The notes under the pieces were generated by a model. It was not told the DNA's origin and did no database searches. It worked only from the letters and a program-made list of their open reading frames with translations. Shown in pieces: positions 6,216 through 63,460 of a stretch of 64,000 nt of DNA. Origin of the DNA: Demequina sp. NBRC 110051. GTDB taxonomy: Bacteria > Actinomycetota > Actinomycetes > Actinomycetales > Demequinaceae. The stretch spans positions 62,001-126,000 of the forward strand of contig NZ_BBRH01000008.1 in the NCBI RefSeq assembly GCF_002090055.1, read 5' to 3'. Every line of letters starts with the position of its first letter. Position 1 is the stretch's first letter. A program made the position numbers and the translations under genes.

Positions 6216-6887
6216 ATGCCCGTCTCGCTCGATCACGAGCGCGCCCTGTGGGACGCCGGCGCCCGCGTGGTCGCCGGCATCGATGAGGTGGGCAGGGGAG
6301 CGCTCGCCGGCCCGGTCACGGTTGGGGTCTGTGCGGTGGGCCCGTGCGACGGCTGGCCCGAGGGCCTGGCCGACTCCAAGCGCCTGTCGCCACGGCGCCG
6401 CGAGGCGATGGCCGATGCGTTGGTTGGCTTCGGCGTCGCACGCGCCGTGGCGCACGCGAGCCCCGCGGAGATCGACGAGCTCGGCATCATCGGTGCGCTT
6501 CGCCTCGCGGGCAATCGCGCCCTCACCGCGATCGCCGCCGAGGGCGTCACGGTCGACGCCGTCCTGCTCGACGGCAAACACGACTGGCTCACCCCACCCA
6601 CGGCAAGCCTGTTCGACGACCCAGCCACGGCATCGGCCGTCACCACCCCTCCGGTGATGATGGTGATCAAGGGCGATGACGCCTGTGCGTCGATCGCCGC
6701 GGGCTCCGTGCTCGCGAAGGTCGAGCGCGACGCGCTCATGGTCGCCGCGCACGCCGAGCACCCGCAGTTCGGGTGGGACGGCAACAAGGGCTATGGCGCC
6801 GCCGCGCACCTCGAGGCGATTCGCGTCCACGGCCCGAGCGACCTGCATCGGCGATCGTGGGCGCTGCCCGAGCGCGACGCGTTGTAG
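6216..6887 (+). CDS. rnhB: ribonuclease HII
   Basis: Cleaves RNA in RNA-DNA hybrids and at single ribonucleotides in DNA. Seen: the catalytic GIDEVGRGALAGP motif (Asp23, Glu24), LLDGKHDW for the third acidic position, and KGDDACASIAAGSVLAKVERD for the fourth. It is 223 residues from the ATG at 6216. In-frame codons reach further upstream into lepB, but homologues begin near this ATG. It lies 13 nt after lepB and probably shares its transcript. An antisense copy of the window's repeated 15-mer lies inside it (6624-6638). Confidence 0.95.
   Translation: MPVSLDHERALWDAGARVVAGIDEVGRGALAGPVTVGVCAVGPCDGWPEGLADSKRLSPRRREAMADALVGFGVARAVAHASPAEIDELGIIGALRLAGNRALTAIAAEGVTVDAVLLDGKHDWLTPPTASLFDDPATASAVTTPPVMMVIKGDDACASIAAGSVLAKVERDALMVAAHAEHPQFGWDGNKGYGAAAHLEAIRVHGPSDLHRRSWALPERDAL
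6624..6638 (-). repeat. directional 15-mer GGCCGATGCCGTGGC, exact copy, in rnhB
   Basis: An exact copy on the minus strand. It is the only coding copy read antisense to its gene, where it encodes ATASA instead of the ADAV seen in the other coding copies. Confidence 0.85.
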
Positions 6888-11488: not shown

Positions 11489-11503
11489 GGCCGATGCCGT
11501 GGC
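11489..11503 (+). repeat. directional 15-mer GGCCGATGCCGTGGC, exact intergenic copy
   Basis: An exact, non-coding copy directly downstream of the exporter terminator T-run, in the 232-bp gap before yraN. The remainder of that gap (to 11664) shows nothing I can assign. Confidence 0.9.
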
Positions 11504-23377: not shown

Positions 23378-24525
23378 CCCGCACCGTCGCCCTTCTGGGC
23401 TCGACGGGATCGATCGGCACCCAGGCGATCGACGTCATCGCTCGCAACTCCGACGACTACGACGTGGTGGCGCTCGCCGCCGGTGGGTCCGATCCCGCGC
23501 TCGTCGTCGAGCAGGCCCGTGCCCTCCGGCCCGCGTTTGTCGCGGTCGCGGCGGCCGATGCCGTGGCTGAGATTGCCGCAGCCCTGCCGGGTATCGAGGT
23601 GGCGGGGGGAGCCGATGCGGTCGTGGAAGCTGCCGCACGCGGGGCCGACGTGGTGCTGAACGGCATCACCGGCTCGGTGGGGCTGCGCCCCACCCTCGCC
23701 GCGCTCGAGGCCGGCAGTACCCTGGCCCTGGCGAACAAGGAGTCGCTCGTCGCCGGGGGAGCGCTCGTCAAGGCCGCCGTCAAGCGCCCCGGCCAGATCG
23801 TGCCCGTTGACTCGGAGCACTCGGCGCTCGCGCAGTGCCTGCGCGGCGGCAGCGCCGACGAGGTGCGCCGGCTCGTGGTCACCGCATCGGGCGGCGCCTT
23901 CCGTGGCCGCTCGCGCGAGTCCCTCGCCGACGTCACCGCCGCCGATGCCCTGCGTCACCCCACGTGGGACATGGGAGCGGTCGTCACCATCAACTCCGCG
24001 TCGATGGTCAACAAGGCCCTCGAGGTGATCGAAGCGCACCTGCTGTTCGACATCCCCATGGAGCGCATCGACGTGGTGGTGCACGCCCAGTCGATCGTCC
24101 ACTCGATGGTCGAGTTCGTCGACGGCAGCACGCTGGCCCAGGTGTCGCCGCCCGACATGCGGCTGCCCATCGCGCTCGGCCTGTCGTGGCCCGCACGGAT
24201 CCCCGACGCCGCCCCCGCGATGGACTGGACCCAGGCCGGTACATGGACGTTCGAGCCGCTCGACGAGGCCGCGTTCCCCGCGGTGAGCGTCGCGCGCGAG
24301 GCCGTCGCGGCATCGGCCCTCCACCCGGCCGTGTTCAACGCGGCCAACGAGGAGTGCGTCTCCGCCTTCATCGACGGCCGCCTGCCGTTCCTGGGGATCG
24401 TCGAGACGGTCCGGCGCGTTGTGGAGGCGTACGAGGCCCCCGGCGAGCTGACGCTGGAGGCCGTGGACGGCGCCGAGCGGTGGGCGCGCGAGACTGCTCG
24501 CGCCGCCATCGCAGGCGTCCGCTGA
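23374..24525 (+). CDS. dxr: 1-deoxy-D-xylulose-5-phosphate reductoisomerase
   Basis: Second step of the MEP isoprenoid pathway: DXP to MEP with NADPH and a divalent metal. Seen: NADPH fold VALLGSTGSIGTQAIDVI, GITGSVGLRPTLAALEAGSTLALANKESLVAGG, the metal site VDSEHSALAQCL, TASGGAFRGRSRESLADVTAADALRHPTWDMG and NAANEECVSAFIDGRLPFLGI. It is 383 residues. The GTG start overlaps the previous stop (GTGA). An exact sense copy of the repeated 15-mer (23553-23567) encodes ADAVA. Clustered with rseP and ispG, as is usual. Confidence 0.97.
   Translation: MTRTVALLGSTGSIGTQAIDVIARNSDDYDVVALAAGGSDPALVVEQARALRPAFVAVAAADAVAEIAAALPGIEVAGGADAVVEAAARGADVVLNGITGSVGLRPTLAALEAGSTLALANKESLVAGGALVKAAVKRPGQIVPVDSEHSALAQCLRGGSADEVRRLVVTASGGAFRGRSRESLADVTAADALRHPTWDMGAVVTINSASMVNKALEVIEAHLLFDIPMERIDVVVHAQSIVHSMVEFVDGSTLAQVSPPDMRLPIALGLSWPARIPDAAPAMDWTQAGTWTFEPLDEAAFPAVSVAREAVAASALHPAVFNAANEECVSAFIDGRLPFLGIVETVRRVVEAYEAPGELTLEAVDGAERWARETARAAIAGVR
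23553..23567 (+). repeat. directional 15-mer, exact copy, in dxr
   Basis: An exact sense copy read in the ADAV frame. The next four bases (TGAG) equal those following the proS copy at 32489. Confidence 0.85.
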
Positions 24526-30740: not shown

Positions 30741-32543
30741 ATGCTTCGCATGTCCACGCTCTTCCTGCGCACGCTGCGCGAGAACCCCTCCGACGCCGAG
30801 GTTGCGTCGCACCAGCTGCTGGTCCGCGCCGGCTACATCCGCCGCGCCGCGCCCGGCATCTACACCTGGCTGCCGCTCGGCCTCAAGGTCCTCGCCAAGG
30901 TCGAGAAGATCGTGCGCGAGGAGATGGACGCCGCGGGCGGCCAAGAGGTCCACTTCCCGGCGCTCTTGCCGCGCGAGCCCTACGAGGCCACGGGACGCTG
31001 GGATGAGTACGGCCCCAACCTGTTCCGCCTGAAGGACCGCAAGCAGGGCGACTACCTCCTCGCGCCCACGCACGAGGAGATGTTCACGCTGCTCGTCAAG
31101 GACCTGTACTCGTCGTACAAGGACCTGCCTCTCACCATCTACCAAATCCAGACCAAGTACCGTGACGAGGCGCGTCCGCGCGCCGGACTGCTGCGCGGGC
31201 GTGAATTCATCATGAAGGACTCGTACTCGTTCGACATCGACGACGAGGGCCTCGACGCCTCCTACGCCGCGCAGCGCGCCGCCTACATCCGCATCTTCGA
31301 GCGCCTGGGCCTCGAGTACGTCATCGTGCAGGCGCAGTCGGGCGCGATGGGTGGCTCCAAGTCGGAGGAGTTCCTGTCGCCCACCGAGGTGGGCGAGGAC
31401 ACCTTCGTACGCTCGCCCGGCGGCTACTCCGCAAACGTCGAGGCCGTCACGACGCCGGTGCCCGAGGCGATCGACTGGGCGGATGCGCCCGCGGCGCACG
31501 TCGAGGACACCCCCGACACCCCGACCATCGAGACCCTCGTCGCCGCGGCCAACGCCGCGCATCCGCGCGAGGACCGCCCCTGGACGGCCGCGGACACCCT
31601 CAAGAACGTCGTCCTTGCGGCGACCAACCCCGCCGGCGAGCGCGGCCTGCTCGTGGTCGGCGTGCCCGGCGACCGCGACGTCGACCTCACGCGCCTGGAG
31701 GCGGCGCTTGCGCCCGCCACCGTCGAGGCGGCCAACGAGGACGACCTCAAGGCCCATCCCGAGCTCGTCAAGGGCTACATCGGCCCCGGCGCGCTGGGCC
31801 CGCAGGCCCGGCCCGAGGGAGTGGAGCTCGACGCCGAGGATGACACCGCGATTCCGTATCTGCTGGACCCGCGTGTGGTGCCCGGCACGCGCTGGATCAC
31901 CGGAGCCAACGTCCACGGCAAGCACGTGTTCGACCTCGTGGCCGGGCGCGACTTCGTGGGCGACGGCGTGATCGAGGCCGCGGACGTGCGCGCGGGCGAC
32001 CCGGCCCCCGACGGCTCGGGCCCCCTCGAGCTGGCGCGCGGCGTCGAGATCGGCCACATCTTCCAGTTGGGCCGCAAGTACGCCGAGGCGCTCGACCTCA
32101 AGGTGCTCGACGTCAACGGCAAGCAGCAGGTCGTCACGATGGGCTCGTACGGCATCGGCGTCACGCGCGCCGTCGCGCTGCTCGCGGAGAACAACCACGA
32201 CGAGCTCGGCCTCGTGTGGCCCATCCAGGTCGCCCCGTTCCACGTCCAGGTGGTCGCGACGGGCAAGGACCAGTCGGTGTTCGACGCGGCGCAGCAGCTC
32301 GCCGACGGGCTCGACGCGGCCGGCGTCGAGGTCCTCTACGACGACCGGCCCAAGGTCTCGCCCGGCGTGAAGTTCAAGGACGCAGAGTTGCTGGGCGCCC
32401 CCTACATCCTGGTCGTCGGCCGTGGCCTCGCGGACGGCGAGGTCGAGCTCAAGACTCGTACGACCGGTACCAGCGAGAATGTGCCGGTGGCCGATGCCGT
32501 GGCTGAGATTTCGCGCCGCGTCGCCGAGGCTCTGGGCGCTTAA
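30741..32543 (+). CDS. proS: prolyl-tRNA synthetase with INS editing domain
   Basis: Class II synthetase charging tRNA-Pro; the bacterial form carries an inserted domain that deacylates Ala-tRNA-Pro. Seen: [47 protein letters not shown], motif 2 [31 protein letters not shown], an editing domain between about residues 225 and 385, motif 3 [23 protein letters not shown], and the C-terminal anticodon domain [30 protein letters not shown]. It is 600 residues, normal for this type. It ends in [17 protein letters not shown], where an exact 15-mer copy lies. Its TAA overlaps the stop of the convergent gene in TTAA. Confidence 0.97.
32489..32503 (+). repeat. directional 15-mer, exact copy, near the end of proS
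   Basis: An exact sense copy in the ADAV frame, about 40 nt before the stop. Confidence 0.85.
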
Positions 32544-38718: not shown

Positions 38719-39634
38719 AGCCGAGCCAGCCCCCGGGCTGGTCTTGGTGGATAAGCCCGCGGGCTGGACATCGCACGACGTCGTCGGGCGTATGCGCCGG
38801 CTCGCGGGCACCCGCAAGGTGGGCCACGCCGGCACCCTTGATCCGATGGCCACGGGCCTGCTCGTGATCGGTATCGGCAAGGCCACCAAGCTGCTCACCT
38901 ACGTGGTGGGCCACGACAAGGTCTACGAGGCCACCATCCGGCTGGGCCAGTCCACGGTGACGGACGACGCCGAGGGCGACGTGACCGCGACGGCCGACGC
39001 CAGCGGCGTCACCGACGCCAAGATGGCCGATGCCGTGGCGGGGTTGACGGGTGACATTCAGCAGGTGCCCAGTTCCGTCAGCGCCATCAAGATCGACGGG
39101 CAGCGTGCCTACAAGCGCGTGCGCGACGGTGAGGACGTCGCGCTTCCCGCGCGCCCGGTCACGGTGCACGACTTCGAGGTCCTCGCGGTGCGCCGCGAGG
39201 GCGAGACGATTGACCTCGACGTGCGCGTCGACGTGTCCTCGGGCACCTACGTGCGCGCGCTCGCCCGCGACCTGGGAGCGGCGCTGGGAGTCGGCGGCCA
39301 TCTGACGGCCCTCAGGCGCACCAGCGTGGGCGACCTCGAGGTCAAGGACGCGATGACGCTCGACCAGCTGGGTGCCATGGTGGACGCCGGGGGAGAGGTG
39401 CCCCGCCTGCCGCTGGGTGCGGCCGCCGCGGACATCCTGCCCGTGCGCGCGCTCACGGAGCGCGAGGTCGCGACCCTCGGCTTTGGTCAGTGGCTCGACG
39501 CGGACACGGATTTGGCCTACGACGGGCCTTTGGCGGCGCTCGATGCCGCCGGCGACCTCGTCGCGATCGTCGAGCGCAAGGGCGACAAGCTCAAGCCGCA
39601 GATCGTCTTCCGCACGGCCTCCGCTGGGGCATGA
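38702..39634 (+). CDS. truB: tRNA pseudouridine-55 synthase TruB
   Basis: Makes pseudouridine 55 in the T-loop of tRNA. Seen: GLVLVDKPAGWTSHDVVGRMRRLAGTRKVGHAGTLDPMATGLL, with catalytic Asp47, YEATIRLGQSTVTDDAEGDV, QVPSSVSAIKIDGQRAYKRVRDGEDV, VDVSSGTYVRALARDLGAALGVGGHLTALRRTSVG, and a C-terminal PUA-like part. It is 310 residues. The ATG at 38702 overlaps rbfA by 17 nt. An exact copy of the repeated 15-mer encodes ADAVA at 39025. Its TGA lies in ATGATG just before ribF. Confidence 0.96.
   Translation: MAKTPKAEPAPGLVLVDKPAGWTSHDVVGRMRRLAGTRKVGHAGTLDPMATGLLVIGIGKATKLLTYVVGHDKVYEATIRLGQSTVTDDAEGDVTATADASGVTDAKMADAVAGLTGDIQQVPSSVSAIKIDGQRAYKRVRDGEDVALPARPVTVHDFEVLAVRREGETIDLDVRVDVSSGTYVRALARDLGAALGVGGHLTALRRTSVGDLEVKDAMTLDQLGAMVDAGGEVPRLPLGAAAADILPVRALTEREVATLGFGQWLDADTDLAYDGPLAALDAAGDLVAIVERKGDKLKPQIVFRTASAGA
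39025..39039 (+). repeat. directional 15-mer, exact copy, in truB
   Basis: An exact sense copy in the ADAV frame, followed by GGGG as in the intergenic palindrome at 46627. Confidence 0.85.
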
Positions 39635-46281: not shown

Positions 46282-46551
46282 GTGCCTTTGGACGCAGCCG
46301 TCAAGAAGTCCATCATGACCGAGTACGCCACCTCGGAGGGTGACACCGGTTCGCCCGAGGTCCAGATCGCGATGCTGTCGCAGCGCATCTCCGACCTTAC
46401 CGAGCACCTTAAGGAGCACAAGCACGACCACCACTCGCGTCGTGGCCTGCTGCTGCTCGTCGGTAAGCGTCGCAACCTGCTGAACTACCTTCAGCGCGTC
46501 GACATCGAGCGTTACCGCTCGCTGATTGAGCGCCTGGGCCTGCGCCGCTAA
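46282..46551 (+). CDS. rpsO: 30S ribosomal protein uS15
   Basis: Primary 16S-binding protein at the subunit interface. Seen: [88 protein letters not shown], which matches the family end to end at 89 residues. Start is GTG at 46282 after GAAGGAGATGCGCC. It pairs with pnp as in almost all bacteria, but here with a strong terminator and a palindrome between them. Confidence 0.98.
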
Positions 46552-46571
46552 GGCTCGCCCGGTCGCGCTCG

Positions 46572-46624
46572 GCCCGGTCGCTCCCTCCTCACGGAGGTCG
46601 AGTGACCGGGCTTTTCGCTTTTTT
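46572..46624 (+). terminator. intrinsic terminator after rpsO
   Basis: A long imperfect stem: GCCCGGTC at the base, inner CCTCC-tcac-GGAGG, and GACCGGGC on the far side, then TTTTCGCTTTTTT. The T-rich tail ends two nt before the 50-bp palindrome. Confidence 0.85.
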
Positions 46625-46626
46625 GT

Positions 46627-46676
46627 GGCCGATGCCGTGGCGGGGCTTCGTACGAAGCCCCGCCACGGCATCGGCC
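46627..46676. repeat. perfect 50-bp palindrome built from two 15-mer copies
   Basis: Two 25-nt arms with no loop. Each outer end is an exact GGCCGATGCCGTGGC (46627-46641 plus, 46662-46676 minus) and the core is GGGGCTTCGT/ACGAAGCCCC. It lies right behind the rpsO terminator T-run and 30 bp before the pnp -10. In RNA it would form a 20+ bp hairpin with a tight loop. The element is the clearest sign that the 15-mer acts outside coding constraints. Confidence 0.95.
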
Positions 46677-46705
46677 CGTCCCCGTGTCACGGACGCCGTC
46701 CCTGA

Positions 46706-46711
46706 TACGAT
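46706..46711 (+). promoter_or_regulatory. pnp promoter -10 (TACGAT)
   Basis: TACGAT, with a predicted start near 46718, gives a pnp leader of about 176 nt. Confidence 0.5.
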
Positions 46712-46893: not shown

Positions 46894-49116
46894 ATGGAGG
46901 GTCCTGAGATCAAGGCCGCAGAAGCGGTCATCGACAACGGCAAGTTCGGTACCCGCACCGTGCGCTTCGAGACGGGTCGTCTCGCGCAGCAGGCCGCCGG
47001 TACCGTCGCCGCCTACCTCGACAACGACACCATGCTGCTGTCGGCGACCACCGCCGGCAAGCACCCCCGCGACGGCTTCGACTTCTTCCCCCTGACGGTG
47101 GACGTCGAGGAGCGCTCGTACGCCGCCGGCAAGATCCCCGGCTCGTTCTTCCGTCGCGAGGGCCGCCCCTCGACCGACGCCATCCTCACCTGCCGTCTCA
47201 TCGACCGCCCGCTGCGCCCCACCTTCGTGTCGGGTCTGCGCAACGAGGTCCAGGTCGTCGTGACGGTGCTCGCGATCAACCCCGACGACGCGTACGACAC
47301 GCTCGCGATCAACGCCGCCTCGGCGTCGACGCAGCTGTCGGGCCTGCCCTTCACCGGCCCCGTTGCCGGTGTGCGCATCGCCCTGGTCGACGGCCAGTGG
47401 GTCGCCTTCCCGCGTTACTCCGAGAAGGAGCGCGCGGTGTTCGATATGGTCGTGGCCGGCCGCATCGCCGGTGACGACGTCGCCATCATGATGGTCGAGG
47501 CCGAGGCGACCGACGACGCCTTCCAGCTGGTCTCCGAGGGCGCCACCGCGCCCACCGAGTCCGTCGTGGCCGAGGGCCTCGAGGCCGCCAAGCCCTTCCT
47601 GCGCGCGCTGTGCGAGGCGCAGATCCAGCTCGCGAACGAGGCCGCCAAGGAGACGCAGGAGTTCCCGCGCTTCCTCGACTACGAGGACGACGTCCTCGAG
47701 GCCGTGACCGCCGCGACCGAGGCGGACCTCACCGAGGCCCTCCAGATCGCCGACAAGCAGACCCGCGAGAACCGTCTCGACGAGATCAAGGCCTCCGCGC
47801 TCGAGTCTCTCGGTGCCCAGTTCGAGGGCCGCGAGAAGGAGATCTCCGCCGCGGTGCGCTCCGTCACCAAGAAGACGGTGCGCCAGCGCATCCTCAAGGA
47901 CGGCGTGCGCATCGACGGCCGTGGCCTGCGCGACATCCGTCCGCTGTCGGCCGAGGTGGGCCCCATCCCGCGCGTGCACGGCTCCGCGATCTTCGAGCGT
48001 GGCGAGACCCAGATCATGGGCATCACCACCCTCAACATGCTCAAGATGGAGCAGCAGATCGACTCCTTTAACCCGGAGACGAAGAAGCGCTACATGCACC
48101 ACTACAACTTCCCGCCCTTCTCCACGGGCGAGACCGGTCGTGTGGGTTCCCCCAAGCGTCGCGAGATCGGCCACGGCGCCCTCGCCGAGCGTGCCCTGGT
48201 TCCCGTCCTGCCGTCGCGTGAGGACTTCCCCTACGCGATCCGTCAGGTCTCCGAGGCGTTGGGCTCGAACGGCTCGACCTCCATGGGTTCCGTGTGCGCC
48301 TCGACGCTCGCGCTGCTGAACGCCGGTGTGCCGCTGAAGGCCCCCGTCGCCGGTATCGCCATGGGCCTCGTGTCCGACACCGTTGACGGCGAGACCCGCT
48401 ACGCGGCGCTCACCGACATCCTGGGCGCCGAGGACGCGTTCGGCGACATGGACTTCAAGGTCGCCGGTACGTCGGAGTTCGTCACCGCCATCCAGCTCGA
48501 CACCAAGCTCGACGGCATCCCCGCCTCGGTGCTCGCCGGCGCGCTCGACCAGGCCAAGGAGGCTCGCCTCCACATCCTGGACGTCATGGCCGGTGCGATC
48601 ACCGAGCCCGACGAGATGAGCCCCCACGCTCCCCGCATCATCACGGTGAAGGTCCCCGTCGACAAGATCGGTGAGGTCATTGGCCCCAAGGGCAAGATGA
48701 TCAACCAGATCCAGGACGACACGGGCGCCGACATCTCGATCGAGGACGACGGCACGGTCTTCATCGGTGCCGTGGACGGCCCCTCGGCCGAGGCCGCGCG
48801 CTCGGCGATCAACGCGATCGCCAACCCGCACGTTCCCGAGGTCGGCGAGCGCTACCTGGGCACGGTCGTGAAGACCGTCGCCTTCGGCGCGTTCGTCTCG
48901 CTGTCGCCGGGCAAGGACGGTCTGCTGCACATCTCGCAGATCCGCAAGCTCGTGGGCGGCAAGCGCGTCGAGAACGTCGAGGACGTGCTGTCCATCGGCC
49001 AGAAGATCCAGGTCGAGATCACCGAGGTCGACCCGCGCGGCAAGCTGTCGCTCGGCGTGGTCGAGGAGAAGTCGGACGAGGCCGCCGAAGGCGCCTCCGA
49101 GGAGGCCGGCGAGTAA
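46894..49116 (+). CDS. pnp: polynucleotide phosphorylase
   Basis: 3'-to-5' phosphorolytic exoribonuclease of mRNA decay. Seen: first RNase PH domain ([66 protein letters not shown]), helical linker, second RNase PH domain ([111 protein letters not shown]), KH domain ([36 protein letters not shown]), and S1 domain ([31 protein letters not shown]). A Glu/Ala tail ends at residue 740. The ATG at 46894 lies 11 nt after AGGAG. Confidence 0.98.
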
Positions 49117-49538: not shown

Positions 49539-50858
49539 ATGCCTCACGCCTTGCCGCTCGTCGGCGCCGCCGCCACCGGAAGCCACCTCACCGTCGAGCA
49601 GGATGCGGGGGCGATCATCCGCCGCTCGGTCCTGCCCGGGGGAGTGCGGGTCCTCACCGAACATATCCCGGGTATGCGCTCCGCAACCATCGGCGCGTGG
49701 GTGGGGGTGGGCAGCCGCGACGAGACCCCCGAGCACGCGGGCTCCACCCACTTCCTCGAGCACCTGCTGTTTAAGGGCACGCCCCGGCGCACCGCTCAGG
49801 ACATCGCGGTCGAGTTCGACCGCGTGGGCGGGGAGTCCAACGCCATGACGGGCAAGGAGTTCACCTGCTATTACGCGCGGGTGATCGATCGCGACCTGCC
49901 CACCGCGATCGACGTGATCCTCGACATGGTGACCTCTGCGTCGATCACCGAGGATGACTTCGAGATGGAGCGGGGCGTCATCCTCGAAGAGCTTGCGATG
50001 AACGACGACGACCCCGGCGACGTCGCCCACGAGCGCTTCACCGAGGCGGTCCTCACGGGCCACCCGCTGGGCCGTCCCATCGGCGGAACCCCCGACATCA
50101 TCCGCTCCGTGACCCGCGACGCGGTCATCGAGCACTACCGCGAGCACTACAAGCCGTCGGGGTTGATCGTGTCCGCCGCTGGCAACGTCGACCACGACAC
50201 GGTGTGCGGGATGGTCCAGGAGGCCCTCGCGCTCGGCGGGTGGGACCTCACGGGTGACATTGCGCCCGTCGGCAGGCGCGACGCATTCGCTGCCGTCGAG
50301 GCGACCCTCACCCCCGAGGTCCGTATCACCCGCGACCTTGAGCAGGCACACGTGGTGCTCGGCTCGCGCGGCTTCCGCGCCACCGACGAGCGCCGCGCCA
50401 CCCTGGGCGTCATGAACGCGATCCTGGGCGGCGGCATGTCGTCGCGCCTGTTCCAGGAGATTCGCGAGAAGCGCGGCCTCGCGTACTCGGTGTACTCGTT
50501 TGGCGCGCCCTCGGCCGAGGCAGGCATCTGGGGCATGTACGGCGCGTGCAACCCGTCCAAGGCCGACGAGGTCGAGCGCCTGCTCGCCGGCGAGCTCGAG
50601 CGCATGACCGCGGGCATCACGGACGAGGAGCTCGAGCGCGCGAAGGGCCAGATCGCGGGCACCACCGTGCTGCGCCTCGAGGACTCGTACTCCCGGATGT
50701 CTCGCCTGGGCAAGGCCGAGCTGGTCTTCGGTGAGCTGTGGAGCATCGAGGAATCCCTGGCCCAGGTGCGGGCTGTGACGGCCGATGCCGTGGTCGCCAT
50801 GGCTGCCGATCTCGCCTCGCGTGAGCGTGTCTCCGTCAGGGTAGGGCCCGCCCGCTAA
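49539..50858 (+). CDS. M16-family zinc metalloprotease (pitrilysin-like)
   Basis: A 439-residue peptidase of the processing-protease/insulinase class, conserved after pnp in actinobacteria and firmicutes. Seen: the inverted zinc motif HFLEH (His71, Glu74, His75) in GSTHFLEHLLFKGTPRRTAQDIAVEFDRVGGESNAMTGKEFTCYYARV, MERGVILEELAMNDDDPGDVAHERFTEAVLTGHPLGRPIGGT (distal Glu), and the C-terminal half with ILGGGMSSRLFQEIREKRGLAYSVYSF. A short form with both halves. No signal peptide, so likely cytosolic. It ends in ADAVVAMA, where a 14-base repeat copy lies. Confidence 0.93.
   Translation: MPHALPLVGAAATGSHLTVEQDAGAIIRRSVLPGGVRVLTEHIPGMRSATIGAWVGVGSRDETPEHAGSTHFLEHLLFKGTPRRTAQDIAVEFDRVGGESNAMTGKEFTCYYARVIDRDLPTAIDVILDMVTSASITEDDFEMERGVILEELAMNDDDPGDVAHERFTEAVLTGHPLGRPIGGTPDIIRSVTRDAVIEHYREHYKPSGLIVSAAGNVDHDTVCGMVQEALALGGWDLTGDIAPVGRRDAFAAVEATLTPEVRITRDLEQAHVVLGSRGFRATDERRATLGVMNAILGGGMSSRLFQEIREKRGLAYSVYSFGAPSAEAGIWGMYGACNPSKADEVERLLAGELERMTAGITDEELERAKGQIAGTTVLRLEDSYSRMSRLGKAELVFGELWSIEESLAQVRAVTADAVVAMAADLASRERVSVRVGPAR
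50780..50794 (+). repeat. directional repeat, 14/15 copy, near the end of the M16 gene
   Basis: GGCCGATGCCGTGGT; the final C is T, the same variant as the copy in dfrA. Sense, ADAV frame. Confidence 0.75.
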
Positions 50859-58371: not shown

Positions 58372-58860
58372 CTAGCTGAGGTCGGCCCGCCACATTAGCT
58401 CGGCCATCTCTCCGGCCGGACCGTCCATGCCGCGGCGGATGCCGCCCTCGGCGAATCCCGCGGAGGCGAGGAACGCCTCGCGCGCCTCGTCACCCTCGAT
58501 CGCCCACGCGCGCACCGGCGACGTGCCGTGGATACGCAGGGTGTCGACGCAGGCGGCGAGCAGGCGTGAGCCGTGTCCCAGACGTCGGTGCTCGGGGGCA
58601 ACCTCGAGCGCGATGATCTCGCCCTGCGCGAGGGCCGCGAAGCCCACCACATGCGGGCCGTCGGTCGCCACGAACACGCGGTGCTGGCGCGACGGCGGCG
58701 CCTCGATGGCGGCGCCCCACTGCGCGAGGATCTCGTCGCGCGGAAGCCCGGCCACGGCATCGGCCCCCAACGTGGCCCGCCACGCGGCCAACTGAATGTC
58801 CGCGATGGCCTCCTCGTCTCCGGGGACGGCGGGGCGGGCGGAGACATCGGCGGTGGGCAT
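58372..58860 (-). CDS. GNAT-family N-acetyltransferase
   Basis: A 162-residue single-domain acetyltransferase; substrate unknown. Seen: SARPAVPGDEEAIADIQLAAWRATLG start, VFVATDGPHVVGFAALAQGEIIALEVAPEHRRLGHGSRLLAACVDTLRIHG (the R-x-x-G-x-G acetyl-CoA loop, here RRLGHGS) and VRAWAIEGDEAREAFLASAGFAEGGIRRGMD. The ATG at 58860 follows a leaderless TAGGCT. An exact 15-mer copy at 58751 encodes ADAVAGL in sense. It is divergent from the ZIP gene. Confidence 0.88.
   Translation of the reverse strand: MPTADVSARPAVPGDEEAIADIQLAAWRATLGADAVAGLPRDEILAQWGAAIEAPPSRQHRVFVATDGPHVVGFAALAQGEIIALEVAPEHRRLGHGSRLLAACVDTLRIHGTSPVRAWAIEGDEAREAFLASAGFAEGGIRRGMDGPAGEMAELMWRADLS
58751..58765 (-). repeat. directional 15-mer, exact copy, in the GNAT gene
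   Basis: An exact copy on the minus strand, which is sense for this minus-strand gene. ADAV frame. Confidence 0.85.
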
Positions 58861-62106: not shown

Positions 62107-62616
62107 TCAGCGGCGCTCGTAGGTGACGAACCGGTGGCGCGGCCCCGTCTCGGAGTCCCGCCAGCCCGAATCCTCGACCTCGGCCCACACCGCCGGATCC
62201 ACCGCGGGCGCGAATGTGTCGCCGTCCACCTCGAGGTCGATTTCGGTCACCTCGAGCCCGTCGACGGCCTCGAGCGCGGCCCCGTAGACCCGCCCGCCGC
62301 CGATCACCCATACGTCACCGTTGGGGGTCAGGCGAGCCGCGGTCTCGAGCGCGGCCGCGAGCGAGGCGACCACGGCATCGGCCCCCGGAACTGACGCCGC
62401 AGACGAGACGACCACGTTGACCCGGCCCGGGAGCGGGCGGAACTTTTCGGGAAACGACTCCCAGGTGCGCCGGCCCATGACGACCGCGCCGCCGCGGGTG
62501 AGCGCGGAGAATCGCTTGAGGTCCTCCGGCAGGTGCCAGGGCATGTCGCCGCCGGCGCCGATGACGGGGCGCCCGGCGCCGTCGCGTGCCTGTGCCCAGA
62601 TCGCCTTGAGTGCCAC
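62107..62616 (-). CDS. dfrA: dihydrofolate reductase
   Basis: Reduces dihydrofolate to tetrahydrofolate with NADPH. Seen: ALKAIWAQARDGAGRPVIGAGGDMPWHLPEDLKRFSALTRGGAVVMGRRTWESFPEKFRPLPGRVNVVVSS, with the W-H-x-P-E-D active-site helix and MGRRTWES, then VWVIGGGRVYGAAL and EIDLEVDGDTFAP. The GTG at 62616 begins 7 nt after the thyA stop, so both are translated from one message. It is 169 residues. A 14/15 repeat copy (62369-62383) encodes ADAVVA in sense. thyA-dfrA is a classic pair, since ThyA oxidises methylene-THF to DHF. Confidence 0.96.
   Translation of the reverse strand: MALKAIWAQARDGAGRPVIGAGGDMPWHLPEDLKRFSALTRGGAVVMGRRTWESFPEKFRPLPGRVNVVVSSAASVPGADAVVASLAAALETAARLTPNGDVWVIGGGRVYGAALEAVDGLEVTEIDLEVDGDTFAPAVDPAVWAEVEDSGWRDSETGPRHRFVTYERR
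62369..62383 (-). repeat. directional repeat, 14/15 copy, in dfrA
   Basis: GGCCGATGCCGTGGT on the minus strand, sense for dfrA. The same terminal variant as at 50780. Confidence 0.75.
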
Positions 62617-63445: not shown

Positions 63446-63460
63446 GGCCGATGCCGTGGC
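63446..63460 (+). repeat. directional 15-mer, exact intergenic copy upstream of thyA
   Basis: An exact copy, non-coding, in the divergent gap between thyA and the cupin gene. It overlaps the expected thyA -35 region. Confidence 0.9.

Follow-up and report, generated by a model that had tools for sequence, protein, structure and literature searches.

A perfect palindrome between rpsO and pnp of Demequina is an inverted pair of a genome-wide, uptake-sequence-like word

Uptake words have been described as confined to the Neisseriaceae and Pasteurellaceae (PMC7811141, PMC3630211, PMC13020248), and a terminator scan of thousands of genomes named only these two families in connection with them (PMC13020248). 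The DUS of the Neisseriaceae is present in thousands of copies, comes in dialects and has ComP as its receptor; its hallmarks are those dialects, inverted pairs at terminators, enrichment in the core genome and absence from recent acquisitions (PMC3630211, PMC2397512). The USS of Haemophilus influenzae numbers about 1,300 copies (PMC5217627) and is less dense in strain-specific DNA (PMC7811141). The cyanobacterial HIP1, another iterated genomic word, is palindromic, 8 bp long and linked to methylases (PMC4390886). Closer to the organism studied here, Micrococcus luteus shares with Demequina an actinobacterial competence system with ComEA and ComEC, and the accessible portions of the reports on its transformation mention no uptake word (PMC12849477, PMC6370729). 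A literature search found no uptake sequence for Demequina or the Micrococcales and no transformation or uptake experiment in Demequina; because its coverage lacked preprints and most subscription papers, priority is not certain.

We investigated a 64-kb stretch of the genome of Demequina sp. NBRC 110051 (referred to as the window; all positions count from its first nucleotide). As described in an initial annotation of this DNA, the segment at 46627-46676 is a loop-free palindrome of 50 bp. It is identical to its own reverse complement, with 25-nt arms that are 100% complementary and 0 nt between them, whereas about 2e-9 perfect palindromes with arms of at least 25 would be expected by chance from the window's base composition in 64 kb. 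The palindrome consists of two inverted copies of an uptake-sequence-like word that recurs throughout the genome, with the core GCATCGGCC and the extended form CCACGGCATCGGCC. Its placement between a complete rpsO terminator and the pnp promoter was likewise confirmed, the promoter being represented by a putative -10 element (Table 1). The palindrome begins 75 bp past the rpsO stop codon and lies directly 3' of the terminator hairpin, from which it is distinct; the terminator is of a kind conserved across much of Demequina. TANNAT-type words resembling the -10 element were recognized by eye at the same position in relatives. As RNA, the palindrome would fold into a 23-bp stem with a GUAC loop, and the 149-nt rpsO-pnp gap as a whole gave a folding z-score of -9.5. 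Upstream of pnp, the match to the Actino-pnp leader RNA (42.8 bits) is slightly below the gathering score of 47.7.

Table 1. Features of the rpsO-pnp region and single copies of the motif in the window.
Feature	Position	Strand	Remark
rpsO (ribosomal protein S15), upstream gene	46282..46551	+	
rpsO intrinsic terminator	46571..46625	+	hairpin and T runs
Perfect 50-bp palindrome, head-to-head pair of uptake-sequence-like motifs	46627..46676	.	
Left 14-mer copy, GGCCGATGCCGTGG	46627..46640	-	reverse of CCACGGCATCGGCC; core 46627-46635
Central CGTACG of palindrome	46649..46654	.	invariant in the 17 long pairs compared, where it was a selection criterion
Right 14-mer copy, CCACGGCATCGGCC	46663..46676	+	core 46668-46676
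Putative pnp promoter -10, TGATACGAT	46703..46711	+	by eye
Actino-pnp leader RNA, RF01688	46765..46837	+	E 6.3e-7, 42.8 bits
pnp (polynucleotide phosphorylase), downstream gene	46894..49116	+	
Single 15-mer copy of motif	6624..6638	+	
Single 15-mer copy of motif	11489..11503	-	
Single 15-mer copy of motif	23553..23567	-	
Single 15-mer copy of motif	32489..32503	-	
Single 15-mer copy of motif	39025..39039	-	
Single 14-mer copy of motif	50780..50793	-	
Single 15-mer copy of motif	58751..58765	+	
Single 14-mer copy of motif	62370..62383	+	
Single 15-mer copy of motif	63446..63460	-	

A 15-mer (GGCCGATGCCGTGGC / GCCACGGCATCGGCC) had been taken as the repeated unit capping the palindrome. It does stand at both ends and occurs exactly nine times in the window, and 30 matches with at most two mismatches were found where 1.0 was expected. 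The unit itself had to be redefined: in a logo of 290 copies, nine base pairs form a strict core, preceded on its 5' side by a semi-conserved flank, G-C--CCACG-GCATCGGCC (positions -10 G, -8 C and -5 to -1 CCACG), and conservation extends no farther than about 20 bp around the core. There are 36 such cores in the window. In the complete 2.754-Mb genome (G000) the core was counted 1,687 times, with 838 and 849 copies on the two strands, versus 87 (47 and 40) for a reversed-word control, and the extended 14-mer 444 times versus 1. Genome-wide figures given here are pattern counts on whole genomes; the other tests used sampled stretches, which for pairs comprised 484 kb of the genome's own sequence. 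Like DUS, this is an abundant short non-palindromic word with a strict core, a flank and species dialects (PMC3630211, PMC2397512), and with the USS of the Pasteurellaceae it has in common a 9-bp core, a comparable copy number and density, and inverted pairs at terminators (PMC1626085, PMC7811141). Its sequence is unrelated to both (GCATCGGCC versus GCCGTCTGAA for DUS), and unlike USS it has no AT-rich flanks, its flank being GC-rich and upstream. HIP1 is a highly iterated genomic word as well (PMC4390886), but the Demequina word is longer, has dialects and is not a palindrome, and a HIP1-type iterated palindrome was rejected on this last point.

With genes called by a custom script, core density was 1.76/kb in intergenic DNA versus 0.47/kb in genes. 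Enrichment between genes was 4-9-fold, and half of the 14-mers lay in the 10% of the DNA that is intergenic. Inside genes, which held 205 of 292 sampled cores, the word chiefly occupied three reading frames, translating as ASA, xADA and xIGx. Density also varied with GC content, from 0.6-0.87/kb above 67% to 0.06/kb at 62-65% and 0 below 62%, a fall far beyond what composition explains. The low-GC, word-poor DNA was probably acquired, as judged by GC and gene content only. The type IV pilus cluster and a low-GC stretch (L169) had 2 cores per 20 kb, and the latter carries nucleotide-sugar-type genes and a transposase-like pair, both named by eye from translations. The word thus resembles DUS in being enriched in core or permissive DNA and absent from acquired DNA, and it is rarer in atypical DNA as USS is rarer in strain-specific DNA. 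At orthologous sites, 29 of 34 cores were kept in the sister species G064, compared with 38.6% of all 9-mers, and 20 of 30 in G015, compared with 27.7%.

Cores standing head to head, 4-34 bp apart, were then counted in whole genomes. There were 34 such pairs in G000, 37 in G064, 46 in G015, 33 in G060, 27 in G036 and 24 in G010, whereas the reversed-word control gave 0 in each of them. Within 70 bp in the 484 kb of own sequence, 23 pairs were head-to-head versus 1 in the opposite order; 21 of the 23 were intergenic, most no more than about 30 bp from a stop codon and many between convergent genes. The likeness to inverted Neisseria uptake-sequence pairs, noted initially for the palindrome, therefore extends to the genome, with its 34 inverted pairs mostly behind stops and its roughly 1,700 cores. 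As with DUS, the inverted pairs behind genes form hairpins, and they do so in two main geometries, one of 31-32 bp (14-bp stem, 3-4 nt loop) and one of 48-50 bp centred on CGTACG. In 17 long pairs, drawn from five genomes, the spacers covaried (score 0.253 versus 0.111, sd 0.015; 0 of 500 shuffles), indicating that the hairpin is retained even as the sequence inside it drifts. Only the inner base pairs are informative in this comparison, since intact cores and CGTACG had been the criteria for choosing the long pairs. Every 48-50 bp motif pair in the comparison had CGTACG at the apex. A separate CGTACG element was considered and rejected: among near-perfect intergenic hairpins in the own sample, it was found only in motif-bearing pairs.

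Comparison of the rpsO-pnp gap among relatives revealed that the perfection of the palindrome is incidental. The initial annotation had given weight to this perfection and to the instability of such palindromes; in the sister G064 the same pair stands at this position but is imperfectly matched and one base shorter, and other pairs vary freely between their caps and yet covary. It is therefore the caps and the hairpin that are kept, and not the perfect palindrome. On neither strand is the palindrome followed by a T run, the next bases being CGTCCCCGTGTC on the plus and ACAAAAAAGCGA on the minus strand; this distinguishes the pair from DUS pairs. Since the hairpin is present without a T run, the palindrome is not a canonical intrinsic terminator, and terminator activity is doubtful.

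Three dialects were counted across 44 Demequina genomes. The GCATCGGCC dialect (A) was found in 18 species, with roughly 580-2,018 copies; in 16 species GCATCGTCC (dialect B, 929-1,864 copies) takes its place, and a third dialect, GCGTCGGGC, was found in one species. This third dialect, as used by G009, reads CCACAGCGTCGGGCA. In sampled stretches of G009 (L143, L144, L201, L208) a second repeated word, GTACGCACATGA, was also seen, with 6-7 copies in 80 kb. A clear word was absent from G001, G003, G012, G027 and G005 among the 44 genomes; CCGCGTCGG, tried as a fourth dialect in G001 and G012, was enriched about 3-fold, too weakly for a claim. When dialect labels were placed on a PNP tree, at least seven changes were required. 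The gap between rpsO and pnp itself contains GCATCGGCC pairs in G000 and G064, GCATCGTCC pairs in G022, G024 and G025, single word copies in several other Demequina and none in G015; it is a permissive site occupied in parallel by different dialects. Outside this gap, no dialect-B head-to-head pairs within 90 bp were found in the small stretches sampled (61 cores). Across 297 genomes sampled evenly over the order, strong enrichment of GCATCGGCC was confined to Demequina. Mild enrichment of about 4-7-fold was seen in some related genomes outside the genus, namely in G276, G201, G246, G080 (family f20) and G192 (same family, f1), which could be weak or ancestral forms.

Several other explanations of the word were weighed against these data. 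The location of the pairs, together with the z-score of the gap and the covariation of the long pairs, would be accounted for if the word served chiefly as a module for RNA 3' ends or terminators, being half of a hairpin and spreading as pairs terminate or protect transcripts. The pairs are just 34, though, which corresponds to about 4% of the 1,687 cores, most sampled cores lie inside genes, the pair behind rpsO has no T run and follows a terminator that is already complete, and terminators would not be expected to switch dialects. With single and coding copies in the majority, a terminator-only module was rejected as the main function and is quite unlikely. A small repeat that is or once was mobile (a REP, MITE or integron-type element) might leave copies in two recurrent geometries such as the 31-32 bp and 48-50 bp pairs, the latter with their central CGTACG. 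For a REP or MITE, however, a unit longer than the word and confined to intergenic DNA would be expected, and the logo and the genic cores contradict both; most copies are single and inside coding frames, and different dialects occupy the same rpsO-pnp gap in parallel. On the evidence of the logo we rejected a mobile repeat, which is very unlikely. The initial annotation had also allowed for a one-off event, should sister strains lack the palindrome and no other paired copies exist. Perfect arms are indeed unusual and G015 is without the pair, but the expectation by chance is minute and both the G064 pair and the 34 pairs of the genome refute a chance or recently duplicated palindrome, the probability of which we regard as negligible.

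A strict 9-bp core with a semi-conserved flank, spread genome-wide, also resembles a protein-binding site, for instance of a protein that organises the chromosome, regulates genes or modifies DNA, such as a nucleoid protein, a global regulator or a methylase. This is unlikely given the turnover of dialects inside one genus, the depletion in atypical DNA and the many coding copies on either strand; moreover, the word is too long and too frequent for usual operators and, unlike HIP1, is non-palindromic. An abundant short oriented word conserved at orthologous sites would likewise suit a Chi-like recombination or KOPS-like segregation signal. However, we found no local strand bias (chi2 10.8, 25 df, p 0.99; 164 copies on the G-rich strand versus 195), and this lack of polarity led us to reject such a signal; with dialects and word-less species occurring within one genus, it is extremely improbable.

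The word thus shows the marks of DUS and USS, namely over-representation, presence on both strands, intergenic enrichment, inverted pairs at 3' ends, conservation, dialects and accompanying machinery. By analogy with these systems, we favor an independently evolved uptake-sequence system in which the pair forms a 3'-end hairpin, with a probability of roughly 0.7; unlike that of DUS, the uptake role of the Demequina word is inferred from sequence. According to this proposal, a sequence-specific receptor, part of the machinery for natural transformation (type IV pilus, ComEA, ComEC), would prefer DNA that carries the word, and because of this preference recombination with taken-up conspecific DNA would keep and spread the copies, as for Neisseria DUS and Haemophilus USS. 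Pairs would settle behind genes because a hairpin is useful or harmless there, and the hairpin at 46627-46676 may serve as a back-up 3' end or an insulator between rpsO and pnp. More tentatively, Demequina may represent an independently evolved case of sequence-specific uptake, the first in any monoderm and the first beyond the Neisseriaceae and Pasteurellaceae, in which at least three dialects would act as barriers to exchange between species and an orphan type IV minor pilin would be the reader. If the function holds, this would be the first uptake tag reported in a Gram-positive bacterium. DUS hosts differ from Demequina, a high-GC monoderm actinobacterium without an outer membrane, and an unrelated Gram-positive case with dialects would mean that such systems evolve repeatedly, even where that membrane is lacking. 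It would also provide a clean comparative test of drive versus selection and a new model for DNA-based species barriers.

Components of a transformation machinery are widespread in the genus. ComEC and PilM were detected in 43 of 44 Demequina genomes, comEA adjoins comEC, and the type IV pilus operon encodes two ATPases, PilC, several pilins, PilD and PilM; two genes at the PilN/PilO positions gave no Pfam match. Demequina shares with DUS hosts a type IV pilus, and most of its species also have an orphan pilin that is as large as ComP and bears C-terminal cysteines. M. luteus uses tad/Flp pili (PMC12849477, PMC6370729), whereas the type IV pilus operon of Demequina is of the PilM type. Species in which the motif is scarce or missing (G001, G003, G012, G027) have competence genes too. 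The pilus operon (G000:C10:182641-202640, and its counterpart in G064) is GC-poor, motif-poor and extremely divergent between the sisters. Although G000 and G064 share a dialect and are 97% identical in AroC, their PilM proteins are only 38% identical; the operon is therefore mosaic and does not track dialect, and the contrast of PilM with the flanking AroC suggests that the whole cluster was replaced. Since cluster type does not track dialect, pilins of the cluster and PilM-O found no support as dialect readers.

The leading candidate receptor is instead the orphan ComP-sized pilin, a type IV pilin that measures about 134-166 aa, contains two conserved cysteines and is encoded outside the pilus operon in about 30 of 44 genomes. 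The copy in the genome analysed here (G000:C7:44724-45128) has about 143 aa and two C-terminal cysteines. This pilin is fast-evolving, and both its pilin homology and its sequence match to solved structures lie chiefly in the N-terminus common to type IV pilins. On its tree, one split between dialects A and B suffices in 64% of bootstraps, where PNP needs two changes, a weakly better fit. In about ten motif-bearing species, including G036, G020, G061 and G011, no full-length separate gene for this pilin was found, and for this reason it is put forward as a candidate only. G027 has no strong dialect and yet encodes, at C11:459628-460026, an orphan pilin whose type is that of dialect-B species and which may have been acquired recently. 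Separately, long poly-G/C runs were seen in two loci (L023, L027) from two Demequina assemblies.
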